From the NCBI GenBank assembly GCA_003141555.1, contig PLMN01000004.1, forward strand, positions 1 through 64,000: a DNA stretch of 64,000 nucleotides. The letters are read 5' to 3'. The notes beneath the pieces were generated by a model. That model did not search any database, was not told where the DNA came from, and saw nothing but the letters and a program-made list of their open reading frames with translations. Each line of letters opens with the position of its first letter. Position 1 is the stretch's first letter. The stretch comes from Candidatus Aminicenantota bacterium (lineage in GTDB: Bacteria; Acidobacteriota; Aminicenantia; Aminicenantales; UBA4085). The translations under genes and the position numbers were made by a program. Positions 34,497-44,766 of this stretch are shown piece by piece.

Positions 34497-36272
34497 TCAG
34501 CTCCATTCCCTGAATTCGAGGGCGTCCACGAACAGGCTCTGGAAGGCGGAACCCCGAGCCAGGCTTTCGTGCCCGATCCGGCCGGCGAGAGCCTCGCACC
34601 TCTCCCGTTCCGCCATTGAAAGGAGCATGGCCCGGGCTCCGGCCAACGAGGAGTTGCCGATGAAACGGATCTTCTCCCGCGCGACGAGGGGGAGAAGGCC
34701 GAGGGCCATGGCGTTCCCAAGGTCGAGATAGCTGCCGAACGCCCCCGCGACATAAACTTCGTCGAGATCGGGGATCGAGAGCCCCTCCGCCTCGAGGAGC
34801 ATCCGGATGCCCGTCTTGACCGCCGCCGCCGCGAGTTGGACTTCACGGATGTCCTTTTGGGTCAGGACGATTCCATCAGCCACGGGGATGGCCTTGGAGG
34901 GATCGCGGATTTGTCCCTGGGGAGACACGAGGCCCCGCCGCAGGGCCAGGGCGACGAGGTCGATGAGACCCGTGCCGCAGACCCCCTGGGGGGGCTCGCC
35001 GCCGACGGTCTCGACGGCGACGGCCGTCCCTTTCCCGTCCGCGGCCTTGAACACGGCCCCGGGCACGGCGAGCATGCCGCAGCTGATCGCCATGCCCTCG
35101 AAGGCCGGCCCGGCCGCGGTGGACGTGGCCGTGAACTTCGATCCGTTCTTCAGGACGAGCTCGCCGTTCGTCCCCAGATCGATGAACAGAAAATTCCCGG
35201 GGCGATGGACGGCGTCGATGGCCGCCAGGCCGGCGGAGATATCGCCGCCGACGAAGCTCTTGAGGTTCGGGGCGACGATCACCTTCCCAGCCGAGCTGAT
35301 TTTCAGCCCGCTCTCGGAAGCCTGAACCGGAGCGATCGACGAAAAGACGGCGAAATACGGCGCGACGGCGAGCGTGTCCACGGGCAATCCCAGGAAGAGA
35401 TGGTTCATGGCCGTATTGCCCGCCACGACGGCTTCGTAGATCTCACGGCCCGCCACCCCGCTGCTCTCGCAGAGGCTCCCGATCAAGGCATTCAGAGAAT
35501 CGAGGAGGACCCGGCGCAGCTCCTCCGCCCGGGCGGGATCGCCGAACGCGGCCGTGATCCGGGACATCACGTCGGCCCCGAACTTCACCTGCGCGTTCAA
35601 GGCCGTGGCCGTGGCCATGACCCGCCCGGCGACGAGGTCGACCAGCTCAGCCGCCACGGTCGTCGTTCCGAGGTCCAGGGCGAGGCCGAAGGCCCGGTCC
35701 GCCGTGTCGCCCGGCTCGACCGCAAGGAGCTCCCGGCCGCCGTGGAGGACGACCGTGATCTCGCCGGCGGGACCGCCGCCCTCGGCCCACGCCCGGACGA
35801 GCGACCGGAGGGCGTCCGGCGAAGCGGTCAAGCCCTCGCCCGGAAACCTCGCCCGGACGAGGTCGAAAAGCGCCTGGGGCTCGGTCAGGGCGGGACTGGG
35901 GATGGCGAGCCGGATCTTGCGGACGGCCGGATCGAGGGCGAACGAGCGTTCAACGCCCTGGCTGAGGACCGGCATCCGCGGCAAGAGGGAGGACGCCGGG
36001 ATGCGGACCGCCAGGTCGCCGGCGATCCTGACCCGGCAGGCCAGCCGGAAATGGGGGGCGAGGCGCCGGCGCGCCGCCAGGGCCCGCTCGTCCTCGCCGG
36101 CTTCGGGGAGCGTCCCGCGGACGATCTCGACGAAGCACTTGCCGCACAGCCCCCGGCCGCCGCAGTAAAGGCTGAGGGGGATGCCGGCCTTGGCCAGGGC
36201 GTCGTCGAGGCCTTCGCCTTCGGTTGCGGCAAGATCGATCCCGTCGGGCAGGATCTTCAAGATCGGGCTCAT
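34497..36272 (-). CDS. Corrinoid protein reductive reactivase (RACE/RACo: 2Fe-2S + ASKHA ATPase)
   Basis: The 591-residue product has an N-terminal [2Fe-2S] ferredoxin domain with C37, C43, C46 and C79 (LYCGGRGLCGKCF ... RLAC), a linker, and a large ASKHA/DUF4445 region from about 190. That region carries FGLALDLGTTTVAAEL, FLFIDLGTNGELVL and YVAGAFGSYLDLGNA. Such proteins use ATP to drive electron transfer onto inactive cob(II)alamin carriers. The ATG at 36272 overlaps the permease stop (ATGA), so a longer frame reaching 36323 is not needed. Confidence 0.92.
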   Translation of the reverse strand: MSPILKILPDGIDLAATEGEGLDDALAKAGIPLSLYCGGRGLCGKCFVEIVRGTLPEAGEDERALAARRRLAPHFRLACRVRIAGDLAVRIPASSLLPRMPVLSQGVERSFALDPAVRKIRLAIPSPALTEPQALFDLVRARFPGEGLTASPDALRSLVRAWAEGGGPAGEITVVLHGGRELLAVEPGDTADRAFGLALDLGTTTVAAELVDLVAGRVMATATALNAQVKFGADVMSRITAAFGDPARAEELRRVLLDSLNALIGSLCESSGVAGREIYEAVVAGNTAMNHLFLGLPVDTLAVAPYFAVFSSIAPVQASESGLKISSAGKVIVAPNLKSFVGGDISAGLAAIDAVHRPGNFLFIDLGTNGELVLKNGSKFTATSTAAGPAFEGMAISCGMLAVPGAVFKAADGKGTAVAVETVGGEPPQGVCGTGLIDLVALALRRGLVSPQGQIRDPSKAIPVADGIVLTQKDIREVQLAAAAVKTGIRMLLEAEGLSIPDLDEVYVAGAFGSYLDLGNAMALGLLPLVAREKIRFIGNSSLAGARAMLLSMAERERCEALAGRIGHESLARGSAFQSLFVDALEFREWS

Positions 36273-37663
36273 TTCCGTCCTCCCTGCGCGGCGGGCCGCA
36301 TCCGGCGGCGCTTTGCGCTCCAAGCATAATACGCCGGAACGCCCGCCAGGACAAACCCCGCGCCGGCCAGGGCCTGCACGGGACGGGAGAACAGCACCGA
36401 GACGAGGATCACGACGTTGACCAGGATGTAAAGTCCCGGCAGCCAGGGGTATCCCCGGACGCGATACGGCCGTTCGCGCCGGGGAGCCTTCCGGCGGAGG
36501 ACGATCAAGGCGAAGCCCGTTGCACCGAAAAAGAGGACGAGGACGAACGTGACGAATTCGATCAGGCTCTGATAGGTCCCGGTCAGGCAGAGCAATCCCG
36601 CCCAGCCGAGCTGGGCCAGGATCGCGGTCGAGGGCACGCGGAAGCGGGGGTGGACGAAGGCCAGCCGCCGGAAAAACAGGCCGTCGCGGGCCATGGCGAA
36701 CGACACGCGCGGGCTAAAAAGGATATTGGCGCTCAGGCAGCCCAGCGTTGCCGCGGCCACCAGAACGGCGAAGATCCGGCCGGCGCCGGGCCCGAAGAGC
36801 GCGCCCGCGGCCGCCTCGCCGATCCTGACGACGCCCCGCATTTTATCCACGGAAAGGGCGAGGCTGTAGACGACGTTGGCCGCGAGGTACAGCCCGGCTA
36901 CGGCGAGCGTCCCCAGGATGAGGGCCCGGGGAAGGCTCCGCCGCGGGTCCCGGACTTCTTCGGCGGTACAGCTTACGGAATACCAGCCGTCGTACGTCCA
37001 CAGCACCGCGAGGAGCGCCGCGCCGAAGCTCGGCAGCGAGGGCAGGGGACCGCGGGGGAAGAAAGGCACGAGATTCGCGGATCCCGACTTCGCTCCGAGG
37101 AGGAGGCCGAGGACGAGGAAGGCCGCGAGCGCGCCGAGCCGGAGGATGACCATCCCGTTCTGGAAACGCGCCCCGCTTTGGACCCCGAGGCAATTCAGCC
37201 CGGAGAGCGCGGCGATGGCCCCGATCGCGACGAGGTGGCCGGCCGACAGGGTCAAGGACACGGGGCCGATCGAGGCGGAGAAAATCTCCCGGGTGAGCGA
37301 CAGGGAGGGGACGATCGAGCCGAAATATTCGGCAAAGCCCATGGCCAGGGCGGCGATTCCCGCGCTGCCTATGATCCAGAAAAATGTCCAGCCGTAAAGA
37401 AAAGCAACCCCCTCGCCGTAAGCCTCCCGCAGATAAACGTAGGGGCCGCCGGCGCCGGGGAACATCGTCCCCAGCTCGGCGTAGGTCATGGCCCCGAAGA
37501 GGGTCAATCCTCCGCCAAGAAGCCAGACGAGCCAGATGAGGAGCGGCGAAGGAAGCTCTGCCGCGATCAAGCCCGTCGTCAGGAAAATGCCCGAACCGAA
37601 AACCGAACCTATCACGAGATAAATCGAATCAAACTGCCCGAGCTTCCTGGCCAGCTCCGTCAT
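36269..37663 (-). CDS. APC-superfamily amino acid/amine permease
   Basis: The 464-residue integral membrane protein has about 12 helices and the APC start LGQFDSIYLVIGSVFGSGIFLTTGLIA with the GSGIF unwound-helix motif. It resembles the LAT/cationic amino acid branch. As first gene of the corrinoid methyltransferase operon it probably imports the methylated substrate. An APC carrier instead of a BCCT betaine carrier hints that the substrate is an N-methylated amino acid or amine (inference). Its upstream region is the AT-rich 37664-38399 segment. Confidence 0.88.
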   Translation of the reverse strand: MTELARKLGQFDSIYLVIGSVFGSGIFLTTGLIAAELPSPLLIWLVWLLGGGLTLFGAMTYAELGTMFPGAGGPYVYLREAYGEGVAFLYGWTFFWIIGSAGIAALAMGFAEYFGSIVPSLSLTREIFSASIGPVSLTLSAGHLVAIGAIAALSGLNCLGVQSGARFQNGMVILRLGALAAFLVLGLLLGAKSGSANLVPFFPRGPLPSLPSFGAALLAVLWTYDGWYSVSCTAEEVRDPRRSLPRALILGTLAVAGLYLAANVVYSLALSVDKMRGVVRIGEAAAGALFGPGAGRIFAVLVAAATLGCLSANILFSPRVSFAMARDGLFFRRLAFVHPRFRVPSTAILAQLGWAGLLCLTGTYQSLIEFVTFVLVLFFGATGFALIVLRRKAPRRERPYRVRGYPWLPGLYILVNVVILVSVLFSRPVQALAGAGFVLAGVPAYYAWSAKRRRMRPAAQGGRK

Positions 37664-38399
37664 TTATTGCATTTCCCAATAAATATCTTCATATATTGTT
37701 GATTATAATATAGTTACAAGATTTCTCCCTTTTTTCTTATCCGTTGAATTATAGGCTAACCTTAATGGGACTTCAATACTCCTTTAGTAATCCCCGAATT
37801 GATATTCGGCGATCATCCAGCCTCCAATGAATGGCCTCGCAGCGACACCTTCAATTTCGGATCGCCAATAGCTATGCCTATCAACTTCAACGAGATTTCC
37901 GCTGTCCGCATTATCCTTGCAATCGGTATTTTGAAAAAAGGATATTAATTAATATACTCAAGATCTTCGTCTCGCATTGCCCTTAAAAATAATTTATATT
38001 TGATTCATCTTTGTTTTTGATTTCCTTTTCTAAGTCGTCTCGTTCTTAACAAACGGACGTGCACTTCTCCTTTCACTCATTTAGCGATTGGATGCGTGTC
38101 CGGCCGTTATCCTCCATTCTGAAACTCAACAATTCCGAGGACACCCAAGAACTCGCAGTTATCGAAATGTTTAAGAATGCTCTCAGCGGCCGACCCTAAC
38201 TGGCCGTTATTTTTCTTTCCATTCCGCTCGTTCCGGCTTTCGCCATTTCTTGTCGATCCTTACCTAGGAATCGTAGTTATCCATTTCTTTTTCGGCGACG
38301 CTGTTCCATGCGTAACTTGATGCGTCCCGAATTCTAGGGTGAGGGGCAATATCGTCGAAAATTTGATTTTTCATCTCATTGATAATAAATGTATAAGGC
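37664..38399. other. AT-rich intergenic region upstream of parA and the permease operon
   Basis: About 740 bp without a credible gene and clearly lower in GC than the rest. It holds a 14-bp palindrome, ATATTAATTAATAT (37942-37955), and a 9-bp direct repeat GGCCGTTAT at 38102-38110 and 38202-38210, exactly 100 bp apart. It also has four TTATCC hexamers on the plus strand (37737, 37911, 38107, 38277). None is a full DnaA box. CGGCCGAC at 38187-38194 equals one half of the palindrome at 38400. It must contain promoters for the divergent permease operon and parAB, but none stands out. Confidence 0.6.
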
Positions 38400-38423
38400 T
38401 ATATGTCGGCCGGCCGACATATA
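38400..38423. repeat. Perfect 24-bp palindrome upstream of parA (candidate operator or parS-like site)
   Basis: The half-site TATATGTCGGCC (38400-38411) is followed by its exact reverse complement (38412-38423). It lies 108 bp before the parA GTG. A long perfect palindrome directly upstream of a par operon fits an autoregulatory operator or a centromere for the partner ParB. It does not match the common chromosomal parS (TGTTTCACGTGAAACA). Confidence 0.8.
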
Positions 38424-38531: not shown

Positions 38532-39296
38532 GTGATCGTCGCCGTAACGAATCAAAAGGGTGGAGTAGGGAAGACCACGACAGCTGTCAACGTTGCCGCG
38601 GCGCTGGCTTTCTCCGGTTGCCGTGTGCTCTTGGTCGACACCGACTCCCAAGGTCACAGTTCCAAGTCCATTGTCCGCGACATGGAAAAGCTGGACAAGT
38701 CTCTTTATGACGTCATGATGAACCCGGGGCTCAAGCTCGCGAGCGTGACGCTCGCCTCCACGGTGCCTGGACTCGACGTAGCGATCTCGCGCATATCGAT
38801 GGCCAAGCTCGAAGCTTCGCTCCTCGGACAGATCGATGGCCACTTCAGGCTCAAGGATGTCCTTGAGCCCGTCCGGGAGAAATACGATTTCATTTTTATC
38901 GACACGCCGCCGACACTGGGTCTAATCACCCTGAACTCGCTTGTGGCCGCGACTCACCTCTTGATTCCCATCCAATCCTCCTATCTCTGCCTCGAGGGGA
39001 CGGACGATCTTCTCGAGACGATAGAGAAGGTGAGGAGGGTGGCCAATCCCGGCCTTCAGATCCTGGGCGTCCTTATAACCCTCCACGACACGCGCCTGAA
39101 CATTGCCAGGGACGTCGAGGAGCGGATCCAGAGGGTCTTTGGCGAAAAGGTCTTCCACACCCATATTTCAAAGAGCGTCAAGCTCGAGGAAAGCCCAGCT
39201 TATAAGGAATCCGTTTTCACTTATGCCAGCGGCTCCGTCGGGGCCCTTCAATACAAAAAAGTCGCCGAGGAGATATTGGAACGTGCAAAAAACTAA
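38532..39296 (+). CDS. parA: ParA/Soj-family partition ATPase
   Basis: The 254-residue deviant-Walker ATPase has KGGVGKTTT (about residues 9-17) with the signature lysine, DTDSQGHSS (Walker A', where most Soj proteins have DxDPQGN), and FIDTPPTLG (Walker B). It has no N-terminal DNA-binding domain, as in chromosomal or type Ib ParA. The GTG at 38532 is fixed by AGGAGG (38521-38526, 5-nt spacing); an ATG at 38403 lies inside the palindrome and is unlikely. The ParB gene overlaps its end. Lower GC than the genes on either side suggests a distinct history. Confidence 0.93.
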   Translation: MIVAVTNQKGGVGKTTTAVNVAAALAFSGCRVLLVDTDSQGHSSKSIVRDMEKLDKSLYDVMMNPGLKLASVTLASTVPGLDVAISRISMAKLEASLLGQIDGHFRLKDVLEPVREKYDFIFIDTPPTLGLITLNSLVAATHLLIPIQSSYLCLEGTDDLLETIEKVRRVANPGLQILGVLITLHDTRLNIARDVEERIQRVFGEKVFHTHISKSVKLEESPAYKESVFTYASGSVGALQYKKVAEEILERAKN

Positions 39297-40131
39297 GCGC
39301 TCTGGTCTTCCGGAAACGTTGGGCATGCGGCATGACACCCATTTTGTGGATTTTATTAGCAAGAAAACAGCGGCGCCTCTCGTGCGGCTGATAGCTTTGG
39401 ACAAGATCGAGCCTAATCCCCGCCAAGCGCGAAATGAGCTCGGCGACATCGAGGAATTGATGTCATCCATCAAGGCTAAAGGCATCCTCGAGCCAATCAT
39501 CGTCAGGCCCAGGGCGGACAAATACGAGATTATCGCCGGGGAGCGCCGGTTCATCGCTTCCCGGAACATCGGCTTGAAGGAAATTCCGTGCATCGAGATG
39601 TCGGTTTCGGACAACGAGGCGATGGAAATCTCGCTGATCGAGAACCTTCAGAGAAAAGATCTGGACATTTTTGAAGAAGCCGACGGGCTAAAGGTCCTGA
39701 TGGATACTTATGAATACAGCCATGGCCAGATTTCGGATAAGATCGGAAAGGCCCGCTCGACGATCACGGAGATCATTAACATCAGCCGCATCCCGCCCGC
39801 CGTCCGAAAGCTCTGCCAGGCGCACAGCTTGGACAAGAACAGGAGTTTGCTCATCGAAGTTTCGAAGCTCAAGAACGAAGAGGAGATGCTGCGCATCGTC
39901 GAAAATATCGCAGAACGAGGTCTAAAGCGAGAGGATACCCGAGATCTGACCAAGCAACTGAAAGGCAAGGACGGCGAATCTAAGAAGCCAAAATACTATA
40001 TCTTTAATTATAGTCCCAAGGAAGATAAAAGTTACAGCGTAAAAATCGAATTCAAAAAAGAGAGTGTCAGCCGGGCCGAAGTCATTCGCGTCCTCGAGGA
40101 TTTGTTGAACAAGCTCAAGCAGCGCCCGTGA
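39283..40131 (+). CDS. parB: ParB/Spo0J-family partition protein
   Basis: The 282-residue protein has the ParB N-terminal CTPase/clamp domain (about 35-130: KIEPNPRQARNE, GILEPIIVRP, IIAGERRFIAS, ENLQRKDLDIFEEADG). An HTH segment follows (YSHGQISDKIGKARSTITEIINI), and the C-terminal dimer region ends in a basic-amphipathic helix. GTG at 39283, behind GAGGAG (39267-39272), overlaps parA by 14 nt; ATG at 39325 is an alternative giving 268 residues. Codon use is AT-richer than flanking genes. ParB should bind parS-like sites; the palindrome at 38400 is the obvious local candidate. Confidence 0.9.
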   Translation: MQKTKRSGLPETLGMRHDTHFVDFISKKTAAPLVRLIALDKIEPNPRQARNELGDIEELMSSIKAKGILEPIIVRPRADKYEIIAGERRFIASRNIGLKEIPCIEMSVSDNEAMEISLIENLQRKDLDIFEEADGLKVLMDTYEYSHGQISDKIGKARSTITEIINISRIPPAVRKLCQAHSLDKNRSLLIEVSKLKNEEEMLRIVENIAERGLKREDTRDLTKQLKGKDGESKKPKYYIFNYSPKEDKSYSVKIEFKKESVSRAEVIRVLEDLLNKLKQRP

Positions 40132-40443
40132 GATTAGAACGATAATCTTCTGTGGCGCTTAATCCAGCCAATTCCCGCGTTCATTATTCATTTTGATTTA
40201 TTCTTATAATATATTATATATCGCCGTAATAATATTGCCCTTAATTATTAAAATTGGGCAGGGTGAATCAAATTCGGTTTTTGGGGGGTGGCCATGTTTC
40301 CTCCCTAGTTCTAGTTTACATAATATATGTTATGCGACTCATCATGGCTGTTTTTGTTAACCCGTTTATTATCAGCATATTACCCCTTCCTATAATGGTG
40401 TGGATATCTTCTTAGACCACAATTTGGGCAGTTGAGGAAATCC
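40132..40443. other. AT-rich intergenic region between parB and the TPR gene
   Basis: About 310 bp of very AT-rich DNA between convergent genes. It includes the 12-bp palindrome ATAATATATTAT at 40207-40218, the dif-like site at 40313-40340, and an inverted repeat GTTGAGGA/TCCTCAAC (40431-40448) that overlaps the stop of the TPR gene. No gene or clear intrinsic terminator is visible. Confidence 0.6.
40313..40340 (-). other. dif: Candidate dif site (XerC/XerD chromosome-dimer resolution site)
   Basis: Read on the minus strand, the 28 bp consist of a XerC-type arm GAGTCGCATAA, a 6-bp centre CATATA and a XerD-type arm TTATGTAAACT. Against the bacterial dif consensus (RNTKCGCATAA and TTATGTTAAAT arms around a variable 6-bp centre) the arms match at 10 of 11 and 9 of 11 positions. 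It lies in an AT-rich gap where transcription from both sides converges, as expected at a replication terminus. Confidence 0.65.
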
Positions 40444-43413: not shown

Positions 43414-44766
43414 TTACAGGCCCTTGCTCATCGCGTTCAGGAAGTCCTGATTGGTCTTGGTCTTGCCCAGCTTGTCGATCAGCAGCTCCATGGCTTCGAC
43501 CTCGCCGAGCTGGCTGAGGACCTTGCGCAGGATCCAGATCCGGTTGAGGTCGGTCTCTTCGATCAGCAACTCTTCCTTGCGGGTCGCGGAGCGGTTGATG
43601 TCGATGGCCGGGAAGGTCCGCTTGTCCACGAGCCGGCGGTCGAGGTTGATCTCCATGTTGCCCGTGCCCTTGAACTCCTCGAAGATGACCTCGTCCATCC
43701 GGCTGCCCGTGTCGATCAGGGCCGTGGCGATGATCGTCAGGCTGCCCCCCTCCTCCACCTTGCGAGCCGAGCCGAAGAACTTCTTGGGCTTGTTCAGGGC
43801 GTTGGCGTCGATGCCGCCCGACAGGACCTTGCCCGAGGGCGGGATGATGGCATTGTGGGCCCGGGCGAGGCGGGTGATGCTGTCGAGAAGAATGACCACG
43901 TCCCGGCCGATTTCGACCAGCCGCTTGGCCTTCTCCAGGACGATGTTGGCCACCTGGGCGTTGCGCGCCGGCGGCTCGTCGAAGGTCGAAGCCACGACCT
44001 CGCCGCTCACGCTCCGCTGGAAGTCCGTGACCTCCTCGGGCCGCTCGGCCACGAGGAGGACGATCAGGAAGATCTCCGGGTGGTTCTTCTCGATGGACTT
44101 GGCGATCGTCTTCAGGAGCGTGGTCTTCCCGGCCCGCGGCGGTGAGACGATCAGGCCCCGCTGGCCCTTGCCGATGGGCGTCATCAACTCCATGATCCGG
44201 GCGTTGAGATTCTTCTGGTTGCCGTCCTGGAGCTTGATCATCTCATGGGGATAGAGCGGCGTCAGCTTCTCGAAGTGGACGTTCCGCCGCTGGTCGATGA
44301 TGACGTCGGGCTCCATGAAGTTGATGGCCTCGATCTTGATCAGGGCGAAGTACTTCTCGCCGTTCTTCGGCGGGCGGACGATGCCCGAGATCGTGTCGCC
44401 CGTCCGCAGCTGGAACTTGCGGATCTGGGAGGGCGAGACGTAGATGTCGTCCTGGCTGGGCAGGTAGCTGAATTCGGGCGCCCGAAGGAACCCGAACCCG
44501 TCCTCCAGGCATTCCAGGACGCCTTCGGAGAACAGGAGGCCCTGCTTCTTGGCCTGCGCTTCCAGGATCTTGAAGACCAGGTCATGCCGGTCATCTTTGT
44601 CGATCTCCTCCTCGGGGAGGCCGATGAGGGCCGCGAGCTTCATGAGATCCTTGGTCTCCTTGGCCTCGAGCTCGATCAGGCTGTACTCTTTCAGCTCCTT
44701 AACCTCTTTGAAGTCCTTGGGCTGCTCCCTGGGCTGGTCCTTGGGGATCGGCGTGTCTTTATTCAT
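43414..44766 (-). CDS. rho: Transcription termination factor Rho
   Basis: The 450-residue hexameric helicase has a charged N-terminal extension (about 1-30), the Rho N-terminal and OB-fold RNA-binding domain (about 45-165: [35 protein letters not shown]), the P-loop [13 protein letters not shown] (about 208-220) and [16 protein letters not shown] hydrolysis drives termination of untranslated RNA. It is the last gene of the protein-quality operon, 22 bp after lon, and has its own intrinsic terminator. Length is slightly above the 419 residues of E. coli because of the N-terminal extension. Confidence 0.96.

Follow-up and report, generated by a model that had tools for sequence, protein, structure and literature searches.

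The dif-like XerCD site in an AT-rich gap of the window (the whole stretch of 64,000 nucleotides that was analysed) raises two questions: whether it is a genuine dif at the terminus of the chromosome, as an earlier note made from sequence alone had inferred, and what the parA and parB genes and the palindrome adjoining it, which are the unusual part of the locus and had been overlooked, are doing there. The features of the locus are the following:

36269..37663, minus strand: amino-acid permease, neighbour beyond parA, followed by a RACo-like activator (Pfam, synteny in relatives)
38379..38389, plus strand: motif TTGATAATAAA, beside parS2
38404..38419, no strand assigned: parS2, TGTCGGCCGGCCGACA, a perfect 16-bp palindrome and the putative centromere of the ParAB at the terminus
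38532..39296, plus strand: parA2, a ParA/Soj-type ATPase with GTG start, AGGAGG upstream and KGGVGKTT deviant Walker A motif
39325..40131, plus strand: parB2, a ParB/Spo0J-family protein of 268 aa with GERR CTP motif, His/Glu-type HTH and N-terminus MRHDxHFV
40313..40340, minus strand: dif, with XerC arm GAGTCGCATAA, 6-bp centre CATATA and XerD arm TTATGTAAACT
40365..40374, plus strand: IHF-like AT-rich motif TTTATTATCA, between dif and the DnaA-box-like element
40399..40441, plus strand: DnaA-box-like element, direct repeats TGTGGATAT ... TGAGGAAAT, 34 bp apart
43414..44766, minus strand: rho, neighbour on the far side of dif, followed by lon, clpX and tig (Pfam, synteny in relatives)

The dif site and the replication terminus

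The minus strand at 40313-40340 reads GAGTCGCATAA-CATATA-TTATGTAAACT, with arms and 6-bp centre exactly as the earlier note had described them. The arms match those of E. coli dif at 8/11 and 9/11 positions. For the left arm, the match to the degenerate consensus RNTKCGCATAA is 10/11. The XerD arm is also identical (11/11) to that of B. subtilis dif. The gap around the site is AT-rich, as had been claimed (51% GC vs ~64%).

A search with CGCATAAN6TTATGTAAA, allowing up to three mismatches, gave a single match in the 64-kb window where 0.04 were expected. The 28-mer was unique at ≤3 mismatches in the genome (3.79 Mb, 33 contigs), so that the several copies that would have refuted the earlier reading were not found, and the search of the clade proposed at that time recovered the site in 56/59 relatives, usually once per genome, either perfectly or with one mismatch, with the flanking parA-parB order recurring. 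These three lines of evidence indicate that the match is not due to chance. Beyond the 28-mer, TTAGTT is also conserved across the order on one flank, and CNCA often on the opposite flank. XerD (367 bits, NCBIfam cut-off 329.6) and XerC (345.5 bits, cut-off 335.15), whose presence had been proposed as a check, are encoded in the genome, as is an FtsK-gamma domain. In both XerD and XerC, the open frame continues upstream of the family domain for ~175 codons, and the start codon is unresolved.

The check by cumulative GC skew failed within the window, where no maximum or switch was present at 40 kb or at dif, but passed in a relative. Since the window genome (64% GC) has weak skew, the complete 1,170,667-bp contig of G036, from the same order, was used. 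Its cumulative skew climbs with little interruption, peaks at 999,879 and declines thereafter; the first position of the orthologous dif, 999,786, is 93 bp from that peak. KOPS-like octamers, which guide FtsK, were counted in the E. coli form GGGNAGGG over 17 related loci of the order and change strand at dif: 93 plus and 19 minus on the parAB side, 26 plus and 73 minus on the far side. Genes predicted by a caller based on codon usage, which missed parA and parB (both plus), were 19 plus and 9 minus to the left of dif and 4 plus and 16 minus to its right. The earlier statement on gene orientation was thus roughly correct; convergence begins near 31.7 kb, as had been written, and not at 40.3 kb.

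Placement across the phylum was in agreement. In seven of the eight chromosomes assembled as one contig, the distance between ParB2 and the origin-linked ParB is 0.42-0.50 of the genome; among them are four with dif beside ParAB2 (G117, G180, G364 and G234; 0.43-0.49). The exception is G373 (one contig, 74% complete), with ParB2 only 0.14 of the genome from ParB1. The chromosome of G180, which we take to be Luteitalea pratensis, Acidobacteria subdivision 6 strain HEG_-6_39, measures 7,480,314 bp and carries dif at 4,257,085; the record of that chromosome is numbered from dnaA (PMC4882960). Skew samples of L. pratensis were too weak for placing its terminus.

The skew of G036, the KOPS polarity, the gene convergence and the position of ParB2 opposite ParB1 support the dif locus as the replication terminus, and the earlier inference held on the skew and polarity results together with XerC, XerD, FtsK-gamma and the phylum-wide placement. 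By its arms, copy number, terminal location and accompanying XerC, XerD and FtsK-gamma, the 28-mer is a genuine dif, although XerCD recombination itself is inferred. parAB and the DnaA-like boxes had pointed to a possible second replication origin, a reading rejected on the skew maximum and the convergent KOPS in G036.

Other dif-like sites were observed. A second, weaker one, CGTATAATATCTGTTATGTCAA, in G000 (C30:43583), has a gene for a tyrosine recombinase 5 kb away and might belong to an integrated element that uses Xer. Contigs C96 and C103 of G030 carry ~15-20 dif-like sites in both orientations, 0.2-14 kb apart, whose arms are conserved while the 6-bp centres vary. They resemble the arrays of pdif modules known from Acinetobacter plasmids; at the thresholds used, G030 gave no match to ParB2 or to the palindrome.

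The parS2-parA2-parB2-dif cassette

The product of parA2, whose start was set from conserved relatives, matches the Pfam families AAA_31 and CbiA and is 65-89% identical across the order. That of parB2 matches ParB_N and HTH_ParB, and Thermus Spo0J (1vz0) with E=5e-35. The order parA-parB-dif, with dif just beyond the 3' end of parB, was found in 11/11 relatives of the family and in almost every dif locus within the order, and tig, clpX, lon and rho recur beyond dif wherever the contig covers that side. A second, canonical ParB (ParB1) is encoded in the same genome on contig C25, ~54 kb from dnaA, and the ParAB of the window is therefore an additional system. Beside ParB1 only a degenerate match to a canonical-type parS was detected; in the order, canonical parS was present in just 23/59 genomes at ≤1 mismatch. 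In addition to ParB1 and ParB2, three more ParB_N-domain matches were seen in G000 (C30:358748, C30:360793 and C10:116095), of which one fell short of the family cut-off.

The palindrome parS2, of pattern TGTCGGCNNGCCGACA, is located 112 bp before the start of parA2 in the window. When the palindromes of the parA-dif region were enumerated, a single 16-bp site, of this pattern, emerged in each of the 18 fully covered loci. Most genomes of the order have parS2 only once (49/59 at ≤1 mismatch; 37/39 good genomes), and G036 contains just one copy at ≤1 mismatch in 1.17 Mb. The interval between parS2 and dif in the order is 1.74-1.96 kb. In length (16 bp) and outer TGT/ACA it is like canonical parS, TGTTTCACGTGAAACA, from which it differs in the inner half-site, CGGC instead of TTCA.

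Within the phylum, the exact pattern was present in 174/396 genomes, whereas the reversed control occurred in ~7. Of those 174 genomes, all but G074 (173) also have a ParB2 match at E≤1e-40, an overlap counted by hand from two tables. The resulting 2x2 table (173/74/1/148) gives a Fisher p of about 7e-51, uncorrected for shared ancestry, which inflates it. Around 70 genomes have a ParB2-like match without the exact palindrome, and some of the matches near E=1e-40 could be canonical ParB.

Thus, parA2-parB2 with its linked palindrome meets what is expected of a ParABS system, with a deviant-Walker ATPase and a ParB with CTPase and HTH features in one operon; binding of the palindrome is inferred. 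That parS2 is the centromere-like site of ParB2 is likewise an inference, drawn from conservation and co-occurrence in the absence of binding data. The anatomy, conservation, terminus location and co-occurrence show that parS2-parA2-parB2-dif is a conserved cassette with dif at its 3' end.

An IMEX-like mobile element exploiting Xer and integrated at dif was considered as an alternative. Such elements are known to carry parAB and Xer sites, and G030, of the same order, has many dif-like sites. Against it, the flanks are conserved order-wide, dif is single instead of two bounding copies, the cassette has no integrase or phage gene, and the parS-dif interval spans only 1.74-1.96 kb; this explanation is very unlikely.

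Smaller elements accompany the cassette. The DnaA-box-like repeats surround an inverted repeat resembling TGCCC-N7-GGGCA, which in the window is degenerate; similar boxes are also present upstream of the genome's own dnaA. The element lies 83-86 bp from dif, on the far side from parB, and is conserved in four families. It is missing from other families that retain parAB and dif, and is therefore unnecessary for the ParB2 system; as a candidate ParB2 site it was rejected, being absent in families with the same ParB2 HTH. Motifs of the TTGATAATAAA type, AT-rich and partly matching the IHF consensus, were found in 27/38 right flanks of dif (5.5 expected in shuffles) and in 22/36 flanks of parS2 (10.7 expected).

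DNA-binding residues, distribution and origin of the system

The residues Q162, G170, K171, S172, N178 and R204 are parS contacts conserved in ParB and Noc (Jalal et al., PMC7383237). All 26 ParB2 proteins compared, from the order and from distant genomes, carry His for Q162 and Glu for N178, with Lys/Arg at G201, Leu/Ile at R204 and R173 kept; the genome's own ParB1 retains Q and N at positions 162 and 178. The GERR CTP motif of ParB2 is intact. Its N-terminus, the region where canonical ParB has the ParA-stimulating peptide, reads MRHDxH(F/Y)V, a motif found phylum-wide, and is of the LGKG type in ParB1. The contact residues, the N-terminus and the inner bases of the palindrome suggest that ParABS2 is orthogonal to ParB1/parS1, without binding data.

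The best NCBIfam model for ParB2 was Noc, with a score of 155.8, below the cut-off of 315. From this match, and from the loading of SMC by ParB at origin parS sites (PMC7333895), it can be proposed that ParB2 is not chiefly a partition motor but loads or unloads SMC condensin at the terminus, or regulates division as Noc does. Against this role, a cognate ParA adjoins ParB2 in nearly all loci checked, ParB1 of the same genome outscores ParB2 on the Noc model, and parS2 is at the terminus. Noc is not known to have a ParA of its own and its sites avoid the terminus. The SMC or Noc role is considered improbable, and ParB2 does not qualify as Noc, given its score below the cut-off, its retained R173 and the adjoining ParA.

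In ten distant genomes of the Acidobacteriota dif was located 57-1002 bp from parB2, in the form C[CT]GATAAN6TTATGTNAA, and the palindrome of distant families is often inside parB2. The dif consensus of the order was not found near ParB2 in those families, in stretches of 20 kb. The two-contig f41 genomes have parS2 and ParAB2 at 0.42-0.50, with no recognisable dif adjoining. The two-contig genomes G217 and G152 show 2-4 palindromes of the parS2 type over ~35-55 kb around ParAB2 near the terminus. No recognisable dif was found near ParAB2 in either; their dif may have diverged. Several whole families of the phylum are without the parABS2 system, which is therefore not universally essential.

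The simplest alternative is an ordinary dif at an ordinary terminus, with parAB adjoining it by historical accident and acting elsewhere or merely autoregulating. In its favour, dif alone accounts for the original observation, and ParB spreading from parS can influence nearby genes (PMC7333895). However, the linkage of parAB and dif recurs across families of the phylum despite changing neighbour genes, and a centromere-like palindrome remains with them, which makes an accidental neighbourhood unlikely.

The cassette could also be a relic: an ancient plasmid or chromid (parABS, Xer site and DnaA-box origin) would have integrated at dif in an ancestor of the phylum and been retained as a stability module. 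The combination of parABS, a Xer site, DnaA-box-like repeats and AT-rich DNA resembles a replicon core, and the codon usage of parAB appears atypical, because the gene caller missed both genes. Nevertheless, the best plasmid or phage ParB relatives among the top matches are at most ~37% identical, 80 viral ParB loci contain neither the palindrome nor a His/Glu HTH, and there is one dif, not two. The relic is thus regarded as unlikely; capture of a plasmid or chromid remains conceivable as the origin of the system, though not as its present function. A specific plasmid or phage source was discarded, no close ParB relative being among the matches obtained.

Proposed function and comparison with known systems

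The preferred interpretation is that parS2-parA2-parB2-dif is a second chromosomal ParABS, located at the terminus, which positions the terminus and dif. This is likely, with binding and function inferred from sequence comparison. ParB2 would load at TGTCGGCNNGCCGACA as a CTP-dependent clamp and spread from the palindrome over ~1.9 kb to dif and further; canonical ParB spreads over 10-20 kb (PMC7333895), and the parS2-dif distance falls within that range. ParA2, bound to the nucleoid, would position or tether the ParB2 complex, so that FtsK-XerCD may find sister dif sites held close to each other at the division site, or the termini may be the last to move apart. The altered contact residues and different N-terminus of ParB2 would avert interference with the origin-linked ParB1/parS1. 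In two species, additional canonical parS sites were harmful when far from the origin, and such sites are reported to be tolerable only within ~600 kb of the native site or the origin (PMC7333895); this would account for ParB2 having to differ in specificity. The broader proposal, that much of the Acidobacteriota has two orthogonal ParABS systems, one at the origin and one at the terminus, the latter with its own centromere TGTCGGCNNGCCGACA, a third ParB/Noc specificity and ParA-positioning coupled directly to FtsK-XerCD, is as open to doubt as to acceptance at present.

No terminus-located ParABS was described in the open-licence full-text literature searched, nor was there in it any paper containing any of the three palindrome sequences. 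Chromosomal ParABS systems have been described as segregating origins, and a phylum-wide terminus ParABS fused to dif, if true, would alter that picture. In that case, terminus positioning in bacteria other than enterobacteria would become directly testable, the ParB/Noc family would include a natural third specificity class, and the locus would serve as a genomic marker for finding termini in draft genomes.

With canonical ParABS (Soj/Spo0J, Caulobacter) the system shares the ParA-type ATPase, the ParB with CTP motif and HTH, and the parA-parB operon order. It differs in location, at the terminus beside dif instead of near oriC and coexisting with a canonical ParB near dnaA, in the invariant His/Glu of ParB2 instead of the base contacts Q162/N178, and in the N-terminal motif, MRHDxHFV instead of LGKG. 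Noc-NBS is also a ParB-family paralogue with shifted DNA specificity that coexists with ParB; Noc has Q at position 173, whereas ParB2 keeps R173. The proteins of MatP-matS (enterobacteria) and ZapT (Caulobacter; PMC7858052) are not known to be related to ParAB2; MatP has many sites over a large region, and ParABS2 one or few beside dif, plus an ATPase. Finally, the arms, the 6-bp centre, the single copy, XerC and XerD, FtsK-gamma and the KOPS-like polarity are shared with dif-XerCD-FtsK, from which this locus differs in that dif is physically fused to a partition locus.
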